Assembly: GCF_003171515.1 (NCBI RefSeq)
Contig: NC_089390.1
Location: 7,502,001-7,566,000 of the forward strand
Direction of reading: 5' to 3'
From: Pyrenophora tritici-repentis
Lineage: Eukaryota; Ascomycota; Dothideomycetes; Pleosporales; Pleosporaceae
Length of the DNA stretch: 64,000 nt
Of this stretch, positions 5,385 to 30,057 are shown piece by piece; position 1 is the first letter of the stretch, and each line of letters opens with the position of its first letter. Under the pieces are notes generated by a model that searched no databases, was not told the DNA's origin, and was given only the letters and a program-made list of their open reading frames with translations. A program made the position numbers and the translations under genes.

Positions 5385-8300
5385 CCGTCCCCGGCGAAAG
5401 ACGCCCCGGGGACCGCACCAAAATGGTCCACAGATACAGTTACAGTCACAGTCAAAGCCACAACTACCAGTCCAACCCTTGTTAGCGATACCCCCTATTG
5501 TTTCACCGACCCTTGATACCCAAACTACCCCGCTCACCGGAGCTACACCTAGCACTTTACGCGTTTGTTTACAAGAATTGGAGGACTGGACGCCTCCCCA
5601 GGCTATAGAGGACAGACACGTTGTCTTGAGCGCGAACACTATGGTCAAAGGCAAGCAGCTTGTCCAAGGCCAGCAGTTCGTTTTCAAGTGCAAGGTCGCC
5701 ACTTCGAATAGCTATATTGATACGGAAGCTTTGACTGACTCTGGTGCTACTGGAAACTGTATCTCCACACTATTTGCGCAACGACATAACCTGCCGACGT
5801 TTCGGCTTAAACAACCTTTGCAACTACGACTTGGCGACGGCAATTTCGCCATGGCGCCTATCACACACGGCGTCCTAGCCCCCATCTCCCACGCTGAACA
5901 CGTTAGCGAGGAACTCTTCTACAGTGTACCTATGACGACTTACGACTTTATTTTCGGCACTTCATGGCTAGAAGAGCATAATCCACACATCGACTGGAGG
6001 GAAAAAACTATGCGTTTCAACAGCGAGCATTGCTACGCCAACTGCCTACACAAAGGCGAGCAAGTCACTGTTCGCAGCAGTCGACACCGACGGGCCGCAG
6101 CAAAAGCCAAAGAACGGAACCCGACCTACGCGAACATGGACATACACCATGTGTCAGGTGAGGCCGCTGCCGCACTGGCATCACGACCAGAGAACGGTAC
6201 TATCTGGCTGTACCCACATGATTTTGAACAACTCGACAAAGATGACAGCGATGACGCCGACGAGAGAGCCCAGGCTAGCCGCGTCTTCGCCTCACTATTT
6301 GCCATGGACATGAACGCCCTATCTCAGGAAGACATTGATAAGTTCCACCAGAAGCTGAACTCGCCCGCTAAAACTCGCGACGAGGTCCTAGACAAGTTGC
6401 CCGAATGGCTCCACGATCTCGCCCACCGATTTAATCCTGATCCCGCCACGACAGACTTGCCCGCTCGACGAGGCGCGGTCGACCACAGCATTGACATTAT
6501 CCCCGGATCAAAACACCCAAACGCTAAGATGTACGGCATAAGTAAGGACGAAGGCCTTGCCGTTAAAGCTTATGTTGAGGACATGAGAGGACGCGGTGAG
6601 ATCCGTGAAAGCAAGTCAGACTTCGCTTCGCCTGTGCTCGTCGTCCGCAAATCTGGAGGTGGACTCCGCATTTGCGTGGACTATAGAGCGCTCAATGCCG
6701 TCACTATCAAGAACAGGAACGCTCCTCCGATGATTAAAGAAACGCTCGCGCGGCTAGCTAACGTCGCCTACTTCACCGTGGTCGACGTCATCGCCGCCTT
6801 TAACAAAATCCGCATCAAGGAAGGCGACGAACATAAGACTGCCTTCCTAACACGGTATGGCCTATTCGAATACTTAGTGATGCCTTTCGGACTCTGCAAC
6901 GCACCAGGTACCTTTCAGGCCTACATTAACGAGGTTTTACGCGATTACCTTGACGAGTTCTGCTCTGCATACCTCGACGACGTCCTAATCTACAGCGCGT
7001 CTTTGGCAGAGCATAAGGTTCATGTCCGCAAGGTTATCGAGAGTCTAGGTGAGGCCGGACTTCATCTAGACATTGACAAGTCCGAGTTTGCCGTCCAAGA
7101 GGTGAGATACCTGGGCCTCATTCTTACAACTGAAGGCATCAAAATGGACCCCGCCAAGGTTAAGTCAGTGCTCGACTGGGGCACCCCAACAACATTGAAA
7201 GAGTTGCAAGCATTCCTAGGTTTCGCAAATTTCTACCGAAGGTTTATTGTTGCCTTCTCTTATATCGCGCGGCCGCTCACGGATCTTACCCGCGGGACAA
7301 ACGGCGACGTCAAGCTGAACTTTCCTATCGCCCAAGGATCTGCTGCCCACGACGCATTCGAAAAGCTTAAGAAAGCATTTACCATCGCCCCGGTCCTCGC
7401 GCACTTCAACCCCGCGCTTGAGACCTGGGTCGAAACAGACTCCTCCGACACCGTCACAGCAGCCGTGCTGTCCCAAGTCCAGACTGACGGAGTGCTAAAA
7501 CCAGTCGCTTTTATCTCCACAAAGATGTCACCAGCTGAGTGCAACTATGCCATCTACGACAAGGAGCTTATGGCCATCGTCCGCGCCTTTGAGGAATGGA
7601 GACCAGAGCTGGCCGGCACCTCGGACCCGGTGAAGGTCATCTCAGACCATGCCACCTTACAGACCTTTATGGTCAACAAAGCACTCAACAGGCGTCAAGC
7701 AAGATGGGCTGAGTTTCTGAGCGAATTCAACTTTAAGATCACTTACCGACCAGGCAGACTAGGCAGCAAACCCGACGCCTTGACGAGACGCCCCGGCGAC
7801 ACACCCACGAACCCAAACGATCCACGGATCATACATCAGACCCAGACGATCCTCGGCCCCGACCGCGTCGACGACGTCATCAAACGAGACACGCACACAC
7901 ACAACGACGCCCGACAAGCAATTCAACTCGCGGCGCTGTTATTCGAATACGCGGAGGAGGTACAAACGCTAGCAGGCATGCTATATCTAATGAGCGAGGA
8001 GGCGTATGGCGTCGATGATTTGGTGGATGACGACTCAACCCCAGACGTAGCCTTGGACAGCCAGCCTAAGGGGGAGACAATTGAGATCCCTCACGCTGCT
8101 GCGCCAGCTTCCCTGGCACGGGTGCCGGGGGAGAACGCGCCTGACGATGGACTTATGACAGCGATCGTAAATGCCTACCGCGTCGATCCCACACTACAAG
8201 AAATAATACGAGCAAAGGCAGACGGCGCCCGTCACCTTCCCCACACTGTCGCCATACAAATGAAGCTGAAGCTAGAGCTACAGGACTGCGAAATCCGCAA

Positions 8301-23000: not shown

Positions 23001-23718
23001 TTAAGGGGGCTTAGAAAGTGAGTAAGCTCTAGTCTAGACCACGATTAGCGTCCTTTTATAGCGAGGAATAGAGATAACCTAGTAGCTGTGCTAATAGCTA
23101 AAATAGCTTTAAATTCTACTAAAGGTAATAGCTAGGCCTAATCCGTCTGTATGTAGTTAACGTACGCCCTTAGGTATTATTTAAGATCAGCGTTTGCACT
23201 CTTAGTCTGACTGTCGGTTTCTAGGTGATAAGAGGTAGAGAGTTTAGGGTGCGTTCCCACCTAGGCACACAGGCGATTCTAGAAATGTGACGTGAATTAG
23301 CGGCCCTAATCTAATATAAGAGTCCTTAGATATCCTTCCTCTTTTTGGATGTATTCTATAAACTTGTTAACGACTATAGGCACCTCTAGATTTTCTATCA
23401 TAATGAAATTCTTTATTTTTAATAGATAGTTAACTATAACTATAATGTGTTAGTAAGAGTGAATATACTAGGTTAACTTAGGTAGTAGGGTGATAAAGTT
23501 AATAGATTTGTTGTCCTAGTACTAAGTAGGGATAGGCAGCGGGTAAAGTAAACTATATTTAGCGGTACTGTTAACCTTAGAGCGTTTATAGGTTAGATAG
23601 TTATTAGTAAAGCGCGTAATTATGTTTGTTATACCTTGCTAGTAGTACTACTAGCTTACTTGTTAGTACGTCGTCGTGCGACCTCCGTGGCCGCCTAGTA
23701 GGCTATTGTGGATGTGTA
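23001..23718 (-). pseudogene. Gyp3 integrase relic
   Basis: Minus-strand continuation of Gyp3 pol after the Tcl target site. A segment matching the QTDGQTER motif region and the following LxxY-rich helix of gypsy integrases is visible (PTVRLRVQTLILNNT) near 23160-23230, and the earlier integrase core near 23400-23600. It is cut at 23719-23726 by hAT1 and resumes at 29600. Confidence 0.65.
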
Positions 23719-23738
23719 CGATAATCTACGCTGGCAAA

Positions 23739-23898
23739 TGGGTTGGGTATACCCAGTCTTGGGTTAGTATACCCAGTCTTGGGTTAGGGTTGGGTTGGGG
23801 TCGCACAGACCATGGGTTAGGGTTGGGCTGGGGTCGCACAGACCAAGTGGTAGGGTTGGGCTTGGGTTGGGTTGGGTTGGGTTGGGGTTGGGTTATAT
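23739..23898 (+). repeat. Telomere-like G-rich repeat array at the left hAT1 end
   Basis: About 160 bp of GGGTTGGG, GGGTTAGGG and GGGTTGGGG units, with a repeated GGGGTCGCACAGACC block (twice) and a repeated TATACCCAGTCTTGGGTTAG block (twice). G-rich strand runs inward. Lies directly inside the TIR. Confidence 0.95.
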
Positions 23899-23991
23899 TT
23901 TTTGGGTACTTTAACGGAACAACACTTAATTAAGATAATGTGTACACGTTGATAATATAGTAGATACATAAAACGAGATATATTAACACAG

Positions 23992-26607
23992 CTAATTATC
24001 ACGGTAGCGCTGAGGACGCTGGCGCTTTCGAGGTGGCAATTGACGCTCCTCCTGGACCTCTTCCTCCGACTCTTCTTCTGTAGTCTGGTTCTCCTTATCT
24101 ATATCAAAGGTATGCTCTAACGAGGCTAGAAGCTCAAAAAGATCATTAACCTCGTTAATTGGCTCTCCATCCTCCCCTAATTAAGCAACTAGGTAGTCTA
24201 GACCCTGTTCTTCCTCTTAAGATATTGTATCCTTAAGAACTATTATCTGCTGTATTGTCTGGGCAGATAGTTGGTGCCTCTAACTACCAATAACATCCTT
24301 AGCAACATTGAAAACTCTTTTAACCCCAACCCAAGCAATTAGTATTGCTAGTATATCCTTCGCCACTTAGGATAGTCGTGGGTAGGTAGGCTCGTTCGTC
24401 TTCCACCACTCTAGAATATCGAAAGAGTCATCTGTCATTACACAGGCAGTACTAAGGTAGGACTCTCCTTCTTGGCGGGTTAGGCCAGTTGTCTTGTCTG
24501 ATTCTACTAGTGAAGAGTTCTAGGAAGATAAGCTGTTTAACGCTAATATAGGGGGAAGAGCTAGCTTTCTAAACTACTTATTCCTAAGTGACCTCCTTTT
24601 AACTATGCTAGAGCCTAGGGTTGAACCTCTCCCATCCGTATTATCATAACGATCAAGGTAAGCAAGAAATTGGCCTCGGTAGAGATGCTTGTACTGTGGC
24701 TCCTATGAATCGTCCTATAAGCGTAATTAGAGCGTGACTGTGATAAATAGCTGTAATAATTATACATTATATGCTGTAAGCTTCTGCGTTGAATCAAGGA
24801 TAGTGGCACAATTAAACAAGAATCTACGTTCTGCGTCTGTCTTCGAATAGTACTTGCTTAGTTCTAGACGACCCCTGTCAGCTGCAGCTCGTACTACGTC
24901 TAGCCATTCCCTATTATCTTAATTTTCTTTATCCTTATCTAGGTCCTCTAATATTTTGTCTAAGTAATCAAACAGTCGATTATACATTAACCAAATATAC
25001 TGAATCTAGGGCTTCTCGTTCTAGCTAAGGAAGCTAGTTGCTGTTTTAAACCGTTCAAGCATCTCAGTAATAAGTTCGAGATAATGCCACTTAGTCAAAG
25101 ATAAGCGGAGGCGTTTAAGATCCCAGAAATTAATCTCAGCCATTTGATTGTTGTCTAGAGAGCTATCTAGGTAACTACCTAGCCTTAGCAAGATTTCTTG
25201 TTTGAGCTATTCATTAATATATTTTTGGATTTTGAGCGCGCGCTCTAACATGTCGTAGGTTAAGTTCCATCAGGTTTTCACGTCGCGGATAACAGATAAT
25301 CGCTCCTTTAGTGGTAGATGTTGTTGTACCGCAATAAACTGCTAAAAGCGTTAAAGTGATACGTTAATAGCGATACAAATCGCCCTTATCTAGTCTATTA
25401 TTAGTATGTGATAAATAAATATGTTAAAAGCGAAATACCTTGCGAAGGGGATTTGGGACTGAAATATGCGTCTCAATGTCCTGTATATAACGTCTCTGTA
25501 GGGTATCCCTTGCTCCTAACTCTGTAGTTGCTGCTAGCCGAAGGTGTTAGATAATATCCTGGACAACGAGGTTGATAATATAGGCAAGGCAAGGGATAGT
25601 ATTTTCTCTAGCACTCCACTAAATGTCGACTTCTTGGAGTTTAGACTAGAGAGTGCGAGCAAGTACGCTATTTTTACTAGCGTTATCACAAGTAATAGCT
25701 AGAAGCTAGGTTTTAGTCTTTGTATCCAGAAGAATATGCAGTACCTCGTCTGCCATAGAAGTACCGGTGTGCCTGCCGCGCATAGGGGAAAGTCAAGTAG
25801 CTTTTCCTAAAGTTTCCAGTCTTTGTTAATATAGTAACCCTTTACCGCAAGAAAGCAGAGGTGATTAGCTGCAGACTAGGCATCTAAGGCGATTAAGATC
25901 TTTGTTGATTTTCCAAGATCTCGAAGGATAGACCTTTTTGCTTCCTTATATTAACTCTTGAATATCGTCTTGAATTTACAACGACTAATTATCACAGTAT
26001 CTAGTCGAAGGAACCAAAGAAATCGATAGAAAGATGGTCGTTCAACTGTTCGGAATGACTAGTTGCTGTCGATTACTACCCGTGCAAGCTCCTTTTCAAA
26101 GGTAGTAGTAGTGTAAGCTAGTATTAATAAAGTACTGTTTCTTTGTTAACGTTGGGATAGAGTAGAGGCTGATAAGTCTGCCTCATTATAAATAGGAGTA
26201 AGGACATTTCGACAGCTTTTTGTTTTAAGATACGTAATAAGGTGCTTTATCCTAATACCACCTAGATTTAGATGCTGGAGTGCAAGACTACAGTTATAGC
26301 AGAACACGTAGGGGTGGCTAGTTCAAAGCTCAGCAGCTTCTCCAAATCGTAACTATACTGTGCCATAGCGAGTAAAAGAGTTCCATCGTAGGTTATCATT
26401 CTTGGGGTTTATACCCCAGCTAGTATTACTCCACCACGCTGTCTATGTCCCTAAGATCTCACTTACACTACAATCTTGCAGAAAACGATTATTTAGATAT
26501 TTCACTAATTCAATCGTTCTCCTGTCACCCCCCTTTGTAACCTGTAAAGAACTAATTTTTAAACAGTTAAGGTCCTCCGGAAATTCAATATTAGTAGGAT
26601 TAGGCAT
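23992..26607 (-). pseudogene. hAT1 transposase, RIP-decayed
   Basis: Minus-strand gene with in-frame TAG/TAA but long coding stretches. Likely ATG at 26607-26605 (MPNPTNIEFPEDLN). A BED-type finger region near 26240-26440 (RWNSFTRYGTVWLRF, CYNC, then paired histidines), then the RNase H-like core, and near 24290-24430 the hATC dimerisation motif: FDILEWWKTNEPTYPRLS, DILAILIAWVGVKRVFNVA. Ends PRKRQRPQRYRDN at 23992. Two probable introns, 24715-24765 (51 nt) and 25395-25438 (44 nt), both GT..AG and both holding the TTATCACA motif. Function is transposition of hAT1, but it is now inactive. Confidence 0.85.
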
Positions 26608-26986
26608 AAGCTCAATAGACTGTGCAGCTATGTCTATAGCTTCTAGAAAGTAGTAGAATAAGGCATTAATAGGAGTAGCACACAATAGGAAAAAGTTAAG
26701 AAGTTTAAGTTTAGATGTAGGACTCAAGGCTTCTCACGCTCCTCTTAGCTTTGCTTGCGCTATAACGCCTGTAATTTAACTTGAAACCTTGGCATACTAC
26801 TAGCGGAATATCATTTTTAATGCCTCATAGTAAACACAGAGATCGTCAGGAGTGCACGGATATTAATCTGCATAAATAACAGATCACAATCTTAAATTAA
26901 GATTATATGGCGCAATAATCCGTGTTAATTAGTTGTGATAACTGCTTACTATCCCTCAATGCTTAAAAGTGTCTTAGCCTAAAACT

Positions 26987-28190
26987 CTAATTATCAGACT
27001 TAGAAGCGGCATTAGAATCCGGAAACCCCTCAAACTCAGACTCATTAGATTCCTCAGACTCCTTAAGCGCTACCTGCTTCTGTACAGCAGCCCACTAGTC
27101 GTCATCCTCGTACTCGCCTTTAAGTGAATTGAAATGCTCCTCAAGATCAGAGTTATAGTTAACCTCTTCTTCACACTTATCGCTATCGTCATCTTTAACG
27201 TACGGCTTATCACCCTCCAGCTTAATATTAGCGTCATTAAGTAAGTTAAGAATACTAGGTGGCTCCCGTTGCCTTATTATATTAGTATCTCTGTAATAAA
27301 AGGATGTGATAAACTTACTGCTAGTCATTATTAGTTACGACTTTCATCTCATTAGGTGTAAGTTCCTCCACGAACTTCTTAAACTCTCTCTTAGCCTCCT
27401 TGCTCTCAAAGTCGTTGTTGTTAAGCTTTGCTAATCCTTCTTAATAGGTCTTTCGAAGAATCTTTTGCAAAACACTACCTAAGCCGTAAATTCTTGCTAT
27501 TCCTCTACTACTAATGTTATAGGTGGGCTTGTTATCTTTGCTAAGCACTTTCGCAATCGTGATCTCGTGTTTTCTCATATCCACCTGCTTAGTGATCGCA
27601 TCCCATTTACGATGCACGTAAGTTAGGTTTGTCTCTAGCCATTTAGCTATAGTCTATTAGCAGATATCTATAATAAACAGCTGTGATAACTTACTAGACT
27701 TTTTCTAGGTAAACCGCTTCTCTAAAAGTATATCTCACTCTTTCTCTAGCAGCTTAGCCTATCTAGCACTACTTGCTAATTTATACTTAGGCTGTTGCAA
27801 AAGCGATTTCTTTAGTTAGTACTTCGCGGAGCGGTCGGCTGTTCTAACGCTTTTAAGTACCTTCTCCTCTTTATCGAAAAGAGCTTTGCGTTCACGTTGA
27901 GTAATAGCACGGGCGCTACCACTTAGAGAGCCAGTATAGGGGACGCTAAAATTGATAGGTCGGCCTTTTCGTGAACCCCTACTACCTCTTTAATCTAAGA
28001 TACCGTCAATCTCGTCAGCTTTATACGCAAATCCCTGCTTATATTAGTATAAGCTGTGATAAATGGCTGTAATTATTACATCAGTAAGCTGCTCCCACTC
28101 ATCTTGTTCGAACCTAGGCGGAGGTTCAAATTTGATAGCTAGAACTAGGCCTTCAGGTACCTCGCCGACTTGCTCTTTCGCGACAGGCAT
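26987..28190 (-). pseudogene. hAT1 accessory gene: unknown protein with acidic C-terminus, four exons
   Basis: Start ATG 28190 (MPVAKEQVGEVPEGLVLAIK). Exons 28190-28080, 28034-27695, 27646-27319, 27272-26987, introns of 45, 48 and 46 nt with GT..AG ends and CTAAT branch sites. The spliced frame is consistent through all junctions and gives 354 residues interrupted only by a few TAG, TAA or TGA codons of RIP type. Middle part is basic and helical (WLETNLTYVHRKWDAITKQ, FKKFVEELTPNEM). The last about 80 residues are very acidic (KDDDSDKCEEE, KESEESNESEFE). Not a recognised family. It lies head to head with the H3-like gene. Confidence 0.7.
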
Positions 28191-28700
28191 GGCGGGGACT
28201 ATAATAATGCGCTGTTGTAAATGGGGTGTTTTTAATGTAGTAAAGAGAGTTATTAGGTGTTAGGAGTTACTGGGCGTTAGGGGCTGGAGAAATAGGTAGA
28301 CAGTATTATGCTTACCTAGAAACGGTCCGTGCGTTGCTGCCTGCGCTAGCGCGAAAACGCGGAAATTACCTAAAATAGTCAACACATCGATGATTCCTTC
28401 ATTTTTAGGCTGCACGCATGCGCGAGCTCAGCGGTTATCACAGCAGTTTAACACGTTTATATAATATGCTTAATACTAATTTTGCAACAGAAATAGTTGT
28501 ATGCGATCGTGAAACAGCAAATTACGTTATGCAGTCCGTGCGCTGCTGCCTTTACTAGTGCGGAAATCGGGAAATTGCCGTCGCCTAAACTTTCCAGCTA
28601 CCCAACTCTTTCAGCCTACTACTTTCTTAATTGTCGACCACATTGATTACAGTAATTAATTACATACGTCGCCTACGTTTATCATCTACTCCACTACGCA

Positions 28701-29273
28701 ATAGCAAGGACAAAACCACGGCCTAAGGTCACCGGTAAAGCCGGCCGGGGTGGACCTAATAGCAAGACAGTTACTGGCGGCAAGCCGGCTCAGAAGGCCC
28801 TTGCTAGTAAGGCTAGACGTCAAGTAGCAGGAAAGTCTACGCGAAAGGCACCTGTAGCTGTTAAGAAGAAGCGCAAGTTTAAGGCCGGCAGTAGGTTATC
28901 ACAGTTGTTTATTACAGCTATTTTCTAATCAAGCTTAGCTGTCGCATTACTGAAAATTAAGAGATACCAGAGAGGTTTTAAACTACTCTTGCGAAAACTC
29001 CCCTTTTCCCGCGTAGTGCGCGAATTTGCACAGGTGCACAAGGCCGATATCCGCTTTTAACGATCTGCAATCGAAGCTCTTCAGGAAGCTACATAAGCTT
29101 TCTTAGTTAGTTATTTTAAGGGTATGATCTATCTATCCTATACTATTTTTCATTTAATAACTTTTATAGACTGCAACATCAATGCTATTCACGCAAAGAG
29201 GGTTACTATTCAAGAGAAGGATTCTCAATTAGCTAGGCGCTACTTTGCGCGCGAGTTAATAGCTTTTCTCTAG
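28701..29273 (+). pseudogene. Histone H3-like gene carried in hAT1, three exons, RIP-inactivated
   Basis: Exons 28701-28890, 28939-29121, 29170-29273, two 48-nt introns (28891-28938, 29122-29169) with GT..AG ends. The spliced frame encodes 158 residues. It starts ATA-GCA-AGG-ACA-AAA, i.e. the H3 tail start ARTK with its ATG apparently changed to ATA. The core is unmistakable: [32 protein letters not shown], and AIHAKRVTIQEKDSQLARR. The N-terminal tail is about 18 residues longer than canonical H3 and keeps GGKPAQKALASKARR and GKSTRKAP. Two in-frame TAA codons in exon 2 (after KADIRF and before AFLVSYF). Identification as H3 is from sequence, and origin as captured host gene is inference. Confidence 0.9.
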
Positions 29274-29437
29274 ATTATAAGATATATCTAGATACATGTG
29301 CTTAAATGGTAGCTGGCGAAGCCTCTGTATAGTATAAATGAAACTAGTTAATGCTACACTGTAATAATCTACTGTGATACTATATAAACTTTTCTTTTAT
29401 TGAAATCTATATTATATATCTTGCAATTTTTTTACTA

Positions 29438-29580
29438 TAACCTAACCCTAACCCATGGTCCGTGCGACCCCAACCTAACCCTAACCTAACCCTAAGCTTG
29501 GCGCTGACAAATGGGTTGGGGTTGGGTTGGGGTCGCAAAATTTCTAACCCAAACCCAACCCCAACCACACCCCGACCCAT
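29438..29580 (-). repeat. Telomere-like repeat array at the right hAT1 end
   Basis: CCCTAACC and CCCAACC units on the plus strand, the mirror of the left array, plus an internal block at 29499-29540 that repeats the TIR-like GCGCTGACAAATGGGTTGGG in the opposite direction, so that this end could fold on itself. Contains the same GGTC(C)GTGCGACCCC block as the left end. Confidence 0.9.
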
Positions 29581-29599
29581 TTGCCAGCGTACGATAATC

Positions 29600-30057
29600 C
29601 TCGTACGGAGTTTCTTACTAAAGAGGACAACAAGACGCCCGTTACTAATAAATAGCTTGCCGTCGTTGCTAGTTTCTAGGTTAGCTAGTTCTATCTAAAT
29701 GCCTTCTACTATAAGGTAATGTGGGATACGGCGGTTATTAGAAGCGAGGGCTGTCTTTACATCGCGTAGGCGTGGGTCGCTAAGGCAGAGTTCTAAGAGG
29801 ACATCGTCGAGGGGACGATTATTAGCTCCTTTGATGTCGTTATATAGGTTATAGGTGCCCTTAAGGGAGAAGCGGGCTAACCCTACTAACATTATAGAGG
29901 TGGACAGTGAAGCGCCTTCACTGCTCTCTTGCATTAGTGTAAGGACAGAACCTAGGTTGTAAGGGTTGTCACCTAAGCATACTCCGGCGAGGCGTACAGC
30001 GGTATAGCTGCCGCCCTATTAGTTAGAACCTAGGATAGTCTAGCATTTGTCAAATGA
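29600..30057 (-). pseudogene. Gyp3 pol relic upstream of the hAT1 insertion (RNase H to integrase junction)
   Basis: Minus-strand segment resuming after the hAT1 duplicate: ASNNRRIPHYLIVEGI, then LETSNDGKLFISNGRLVVLF, which matches the region before the integrase zinc domain of gypsy pol. The last 79-residue stretch (29695-29934) is open. Gyp3 is truncated at 30057 by the Cop3 LTR. Confidence 0.6.

Follow-up and report, generated by a model that had tools for sequence, protein, structure and literature searches.

An H3-carrying hAT family of Pyrenophora tritici-repentis (Ptr) has already been published (Manning et al. 2013, PMC3538342), which is the report of a transposon-linked H3 duplication to which the initial annotation of the locus described here had alluded. 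The authors present it as the first transduplication in fungi, count 26 copies, report ESTs and suggest drift. Their family has the same three genes, long and short forms, a tail insertion in the H3-like gene (H3L) and near-identical copies, all of which recur here. In contrast to the near-identity stressed there, the copy analysed here is mutated by RIP; where H3L was thought to have drifted, we find derived residues common across genera; and the published sizes (5.6 and 2.3 kb) lie about 0.25 kb below ours. The main text of that paper contains neither the word lysine nor H3K9.

A similar event was later described in Mycosphaerellaceae, with the Ptr event regarded as recent and independent (Dhillon et al. 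2019, PMC6710886). As in Ptr, the hAT-H3 elements of Pseudocercospora fijiensis, Cercospora and Sphaerulina combine H3-like sequence within a hAT, 8-bp TSDs and RIP, and where a hAT-H3 has two H3 copies, the second has a 16-aa insertion. Unlike in Ptr, the captured H3 has no introns and all copies are dead except the original gene; according to the authors, these elements lack similarity to the Ptr element. In Parastagonospora nodorum, the repeat R25 likewise is RIP-degraded and shows similarity to H3 and, weakly, to a DNA transposon, with Ptr H3 EDU47581.1 as its listed match (Hane and Oliver 2010, PMC3017866); however, its authors reclassified it as an endogenous gene region, and the P. nodorum relative of the central gene discussed below is P0137. 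More distantly, a Culex Helentron is another DNA transposon with pieces of histone genes, yet its H4 and H15 fragments carry a premature stop, a frameshift and indels, whereas H3 is intact in Ptr (PMC4067079). Among the titles listed in searches of open-licence literature on these subjects, none was recognised as reporting an old H3L clade, an H3L pairing surface or the state of Lys9 in H3L.

The stretch analysed here (the window) comprises 64,000 nucleotides of contig C1 (7502001-7566000) in a Ptr genome of 40.9 Mb and 41 contigs. It contains an element that is a hAT by its TIRs, 8-bp TSD and transposase dimerisation domain, and that is a member of the published family by its three genes, TIRs, length and similarity to seven young long-form relatives, with whose column consensus it shares 95.3% of 5,859 aligned bases (Table 1). 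The initial annotation had placed the H3-like gene between TIRs and perfect 8-bp duplicates and concluded that it moves, or moved, with the hAT; both statements are borne out. The TIRs are perfect over 17 bp and the TSD over 8 bp, and L022, a paralogue of the repeat around the element that lacks the insert, has CGATAATC once, near its position 8,150, so that the insertion is shown directly; H3L copies matching the element lie elsewhere in the genome. Perfect 8-bp duplicates also flank 9 of the 13 relatives with both ends compared and are absent in 4, and the relatives measure 5,857-5,882 bp in the long form and 2,574-2,595 bp in the short form. The surroundings (window 23001-30050) form a nest, the hAT lying in a second repeat family that is uninterrupted elsewhere (L022 7428-8604) and whose L022 copy is about 11-15% diverged from that in the window. 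Just inside the ends of the element (23727-23870 and 29430-29591) lie subterminal G-rich, minisatellite-like repeats (GGGTTGGGGTTGGG, TTAGGG-like) with a telomere-like look.

Table 1. Features of the H3L-carrying hAT element, in window coordinates.
Feature	Position	Strand	Sequence or state	Basis
Long-form hAT element carrying H3L	23727..29591		5,865 bp; RIP-mutated	Ends, length, TSD
Left TSD	23719..23726	+	CGATAATC	Single copy in empty paralogue L022
Right TSD	29592..29599	+	CGATAATC	Single copy in empty paralogue L022
Left TIR	23727..23743	+	17 bp, TACGCTGGCAAATGGGT	
Right TIR	29575..29591	-	17 bp, TACGCTGGCAAATGGGT	
hAT transposase gene, 3 exons	23992..26637 (23992-24714, 24766-25389, 25439-26637)	-	Broken	
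Central gene, 4 exons	26987..28190 (26987-27272, 27319-27646, 27695-28037, 28080-28190)	-	8 stops	
Motif in divergent H3L/central-gene promoter region	28435..28443	+	TTATCACAG	
Other exact motif starts in window	24738, 25989, 27681, 28054, 28896		TTATCACAG	
H3L exon 1	28701..28890	+	Tail extension; ATG lost	Alignment to intact relative L033
H3L intron 1	28891..28938	+	Contains paired TTATCACAG-like motif	
H3L exon 2	28939..29121	+	Two in-frame TAA	L033 alignment; PF00125 match in own-genome search
H3L exon 3	29170..29273	+		L033 alignment

Intact copies, whose existence elsewhere had been proposed, are indeed present. A Pfam Histone search of the genome gave 41 matches, 33 of which could be assigned to H3L from their location and the part of the profile covered: 32 have no stop within the match, the second exon being open, and the other is the window copy with its two TAA codons; one relative, L033, encodes all three genes intact. 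The remaining eight are the own H3 (one), CenH3 (two rows) and five others, four of which read as non-H3 proteins; own H3 and CenH3 were named by reading translations, and 7 of the 8 non-H3L rows were read, all but the weakest (27.3 bits). A nucleotide search with 1,031 bases of the element gave 36 rows, of which 30 cover the full length, 3 are partial and 3 are detached ends. This agrees with the 33 copies above, and every one of the 33 H3L places matches the piece searched. The H3L gene was compared in 20 of the 32 young copies: 13 are identical to the reference, two have one silent change, three have one missense change (of two kinds) and two have indels, variants too few for a selection test on these 20 copies to be informative. 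The present burst of 32 near-identical copies looks recent, and it is the amplification alone that appears young. Three close pairs of H3L copies lie in opposite orientation with starts 4-5 kb apart (C4:2930089-2935422, designated L023, C7:1128788-1134402 and C18:6620-12233); the 8-mers flanking the L023 pair do not match.

The gene models derive from L033, in which splice sites and starts were chosen by the analyst, the resulting H3L and central proteins agreeing closely with the database proteins P0001 and P0121; the exon maps were then transferred to the window by alignment. The exon span so obtained coincides exactly with the three-exon gene first proposed at 28701-29273, and the other features ascribed to its product hold as well: the motifs KRYQRG, LLRKLPF and AIHAKRVT, the ARTK tail start and a tail some 18 residues beyond that of canonical H3 (18 in the spliced protein). 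H3L of L033 has 158 aa and, in the HMM comparison proposed as a check of H3 similarity, matches Pfam Histone (PF00125) at E 9.4e-32. P0001, 99% identical to it, matches a solved histone H3 at a best E of 5e-40, and the 60 matches listed of 162 among solved structures are all named histone H3 or H3 variants. H3L therefore belongs to the histone H3 superfamily, although its 70% globular identity, its 18 additional tail residues and its altered Lys9 register set it apart from canonical H3/H3.3. Among the matches listed, the nearest proteins to H3L and to the central protein are from Ptr, at 99% identity.

The transposase of L033 (848 aa) has the hAT C-terminal dimerisation domain (PF05699, E 2.4e-20), and its match to the RNase-H-like core PF14372 is weak and below the cut-off (E 0.042). 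In the window copy, the chosen transposase start codon reads ATA, and a 1-bp gap accounts for some of the many stops. Between transposase and H3L lies the central gene, whose product in L033 has 355 aa and is acidic (pI 4.5; 4.05 for the last 110 residues). A protein search with it gave 17 matches: 11 from Ptr, two from Pyrenophora teres and one each from Bipolaris sorokiniana, Exserohilum turcica, P. nodorum (P0137) and an unnamed contig, the six from outside Ptr being 39-66% identical to the Ptr protein. These relatives share the acidic C-terminal stretch, and [DE]FEGF stands near the C-terminal end in five of seven aligned central proteins. The central gene was rejected as a member of a known family, given that the protein of the intact relative has no Pfam match over the cut-off and no solved relative was found (best E 0.67); Pfam matches of the seven relatives are weak and each confined to one member (best Elongin_A, E 0.0032), and no relative was confirmed in the viral contigs scanned with the protein. 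Structure models are poor (pLDDT 51.6, and 59.7 for the central protein). In P. teres, H3L (P0094) and the central protein (P0124) have the consecutive locus numbers CFE70_001393 and CFE70_001394, and the two genes are therefore probably neighbours there; no H3L of Bipolaris or Exserohilum was seen among the 120 matches listed of the H3L protein search. From its acidity and its position beside H3L, the central protein may be a delivery factor for the histone.

The window copy is dead, as had been stated, with all three genes broken, mainly by RIP-type mutation. The loss of the H3L start codon (ATG to ATA) and the two in-frame TAA codons had both been read as fitting RIP; both lesions are present, but of the two stops only one arose by a RIP-type change at CpA and the other by a transversion. 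The coding exons of H3L have 14 base changes in all, 9 of them RIP-type at CpA. For the whole element, counted against the column consensus of the seven young long-form relatives, which themselves differ from it by 3-8 substitutions each, there are 278 substitutions, 228 of them C-to-T or G-to-A and 183 of these at CpA on either strand. Put differently, 183 of 724 CpA sites are changed as against 45 of 1,882 other C/G sites, a strong CpA bias across the two strands that marks the element as RIP-mutated. RIP in Ptr has been described as very inefficient or lacking (Dhillon et al. 2019, PMC6710886), a published view to which RIP-type mutation in a member of the Ptr H3L family runs contrary.

Over 88 globular positions, H3L is 70% identical to the host's own H3, which has a single intron, in the Gln19 codon; H3L is without that intron, and its introns interrupt the Thr45 and Asp106 codons, both of which are uninterrupted in own H3 and CenH3. 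On account of this identity and these different introns, a direct origin of H3L from own H3 was rejected. CenH3 (CENP-A) has a longer loop 1; that of own CenH3 is three residues longer than in H3L, where loop 1 has H3 length, and this, with own CenH3 falling outside the H3L clade, led to rejection of a CenH3 identity.

A protein search with H3L gave 7,925 relatives among 8,000 scored candidates, and the 120 matches listed include H3L-like proteins from P. teres and from Paraphoma, Alternaria and Massariosphaeria, which are Pleosporales; a further search added no new H3L among its 120 matches listed, other H3 proteins dominating. A first tree (15 rows) united Ptr, P. teres, Paraphoma and Alternaria with moderate support (91/89) and left Massariosphaeria outside. 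The initial annotation had called for a tree with canonical H3, H3.3 and CENP-A; a larger tree of 57 rows, with own H3 and CenH3 included, puts H3L in a separate H3 clade. In it, a branch with support 100/98 separates seven members (the above five plus the metagenomic P0067 and P0069) from own H3, own CenH3 and 48 further H3s; the alignment has 95 columns, branches are long and the bootstrap had yet to converge. These 48 controls are listed proteins of 130-165 aa, and P0094 and four Ptr variants did not enter the tree. Since P0067 and P0069 were selected by their Asn110 and Tyr130, their place in the clade and the seven-member residue counts are partly circular; the other five had been recognised by general similarity, independently of these residues. 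Apparently, then, H3L is a distinct, old H3 clade rather than a fresh copy of host H3, and it has probably long been carried by a hAT lineage in Pleosporales, with the other genera known from proteins alone. The two metagenomic proteins have a shorter tail than Ptr H3L and are possibly closer to the ancestral form.

The clade is further marked by its H3-H3 pairing surface. Positions 109, 110, 126 and 130 of H3 form a hydrophobic cluster between the two H3 molecules, and the engineered H3Y alters it by L109I, A110W and L130I (eLife 2017, PMC5626479). H3L differs at the same positions 109, 110 and 130, including L109I, although H3X/H3Y is a laboratory design that forces heterodimers, whereas H3L is natural and its pairing behaviour a prediction from sequence. 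Asn110 and Tyr130 are found in all seven clade members (five found independently, two picked by these residues), Leu126 in all seven and Ile109 in five. Among 183 controls, the pair was located in P0067 and P0069, and in the remaining 181 H3 proteins Asn110 occurs in none and Tyr130 in one. The pairing surface is consistently changed across the clade. Five H3Ls that span several genera have the same residue at 45 of the 88 globular positions; Asp123 is kept in all five and His113 in four, with Tyr in one P. teres copy. The residue table left out 17 central proteins and six H3L rows, namely P0094 and five Ptr variants, most of them truncated or altered.

In the tail, counted from the TGGK anchor, Lys9 is replaced in five of seven clade members (Thr, Leu, Ala, Ala and Pro) and kept in P0067 and P0069, so that a universal loss was rejected; the HMMER alignment to solved H3 also puts Thr opposite Lys9, and the second P. 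teres copy P0094 is likewise without Lys9. Other TGGK proteins have Lys9 in 163 of 166 cases, or in 161 of 164 after removal of P0067 and P0069. This count leaves out the rows excluded from the residue table and the five H3Ls as well, and of the 183 proteins that remained, 17 did not pass the filter for TGGK or length. All seven clade members retain Lys14 and Lys18, and six of them Lys23 (not P0069). A loss of Lys27 was dropped as a candidate: of the proteins compared, Ptr H3L is alone in being without it when residues are counted from TGGK, and the tail alignment further on is ambiguous.

A further feature of the element is the motif CTGTGATAA/TTATCACAG, of which an intact element has 11 copies in its 5,430-bp core; in 50 shuffles of the core, drawn as first-order Markov samples and hence a simple control, no 9-mer exceeded four. 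Seven of the 11 lie in introns, three in the H3L/central-gene leader and divergent promoter and one in transposase coding sequence. Five of the seven introns have the exact motif, and in six a pair is recognisable by eye. Exact TTATCACAG pairs with 13-base spacing number 43 in the genome, against none for the reversed control, and by coordinates and sequence all 43 are in the H3L hAT family, 32 of them at the first intron of H3L and 11 at the second of the transposase gene; one pair far from any H3L belongs to a transposase fragment 99.9% identical to the element. As single motifs, six exact TTATCACAG lie in the window, all within the element, where 0.39 were expected for the 64 kb. That the pair is common to introns of three different genes looks as if there were a common origin or a common binding site, and our guess is that it is a putative binding site for an element protein.

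How might such a histone serve its element? Intact copies would make H3L, which would pair with H4 via the conserved histone fold, while the changed H3-H3 surface (Asn110, Tyr130) may favour pairing with itself over pairing with host H3. The acidic central protein might help to deliver H3L, and H3L nucleosomes without the usual Lys9 methylation site could allow the element to stay expressed or mobile; the retention of Lys9 in P0067 and P0069 is a point against this scheme. Taking together the dead, RIP-mutated long-form Ptr copy, the old H3L clade and the mechanism of self-pairing and Lys9, we lean slightly towards this reading being right. Its fullest version, a selfish histone that has been kept for long, pairs with itself, is delivered by an acidic partner, is laid on element DNA perhaps via the TTATCACAG pairs and, unmarkable at Lys9, resists silencing, strikes us as decidedly improbable.

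The published reading, a recent capture of a host H3 transcript that was amplified into copies drifting without function, would account for the near-identity of the young copies and for the absence of the host H3 intron, and the Ptr event has been called very recent, independent and transcript-derived (Dhillon et al. 2019, PMC6710886). Set against this are the low identity of H3L to own H3, the derived residues and the 100/98 clade shared with H3Ls of P. teres and three other genera. The capture would therefore have to be older than the Pyrenophora-Alternaria-Paraphoma splits or to have had another source; we disfavour recent capture as very unlikely. H3L could also be a host-encoded Pleosporales H3 variant, taken up by a hAT once or more, the clade then reflecting host history; the Alternaria, Paraphoma and Massariosphaeria members, known from protein sequences alone, would fit this, and a tree by itself cannot separate host from transposon descent. 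Yet no H3L outside the transposon was found in the Ptr genome, where all 33 places match the element piece searched, the P. teres H3L locus number adjoins that of the hAT central gene, and the RIP-degraded R25 of P. nodorum joins H3 with weak DNA-transposon similarity (PMC3017866), and we regard this origin as rather unlikely.

That H3L is a neutral or mildly useful passenger without a chromatin role, its frames intact only through youth, agrees with the lack of a selection signal in the 20 of 32 young copies compared. However, about half of the globular positions (45 of 88) are invariant among H3Ls of different genera, the H113/D123 pair and the arginines that we take to be the DNA contacts of H3 are mostly kept, and the joint fixation of Asn110 and Tyr130 is hardly expected from free drift. 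ESTs, moreover, have been reported (Manning et al. 2013, PMC3538342), and we regard the passenger explanation as unlikely. A role of H3L in chromatin may instead be envisaged on the preferred reading of an old, transposon-borne clade.

Relative to published accounts, what appears to be new is the apparently old H3L clade, its changed pairing surface and the absence of Lys9 from most of its members, the relatives of the acidic neighbour in four other named species, RIP-type mutation in this family and the element-specific motif. In the published account, the histone is a recent capture of a housekeeping transcript, from which the old-clade reading differs. Should H3L indeed be a long-established H3 clade, borne by a transposon and altered in its pairing surface, it would make a natural candidate for a histone at the service of a mobile element.
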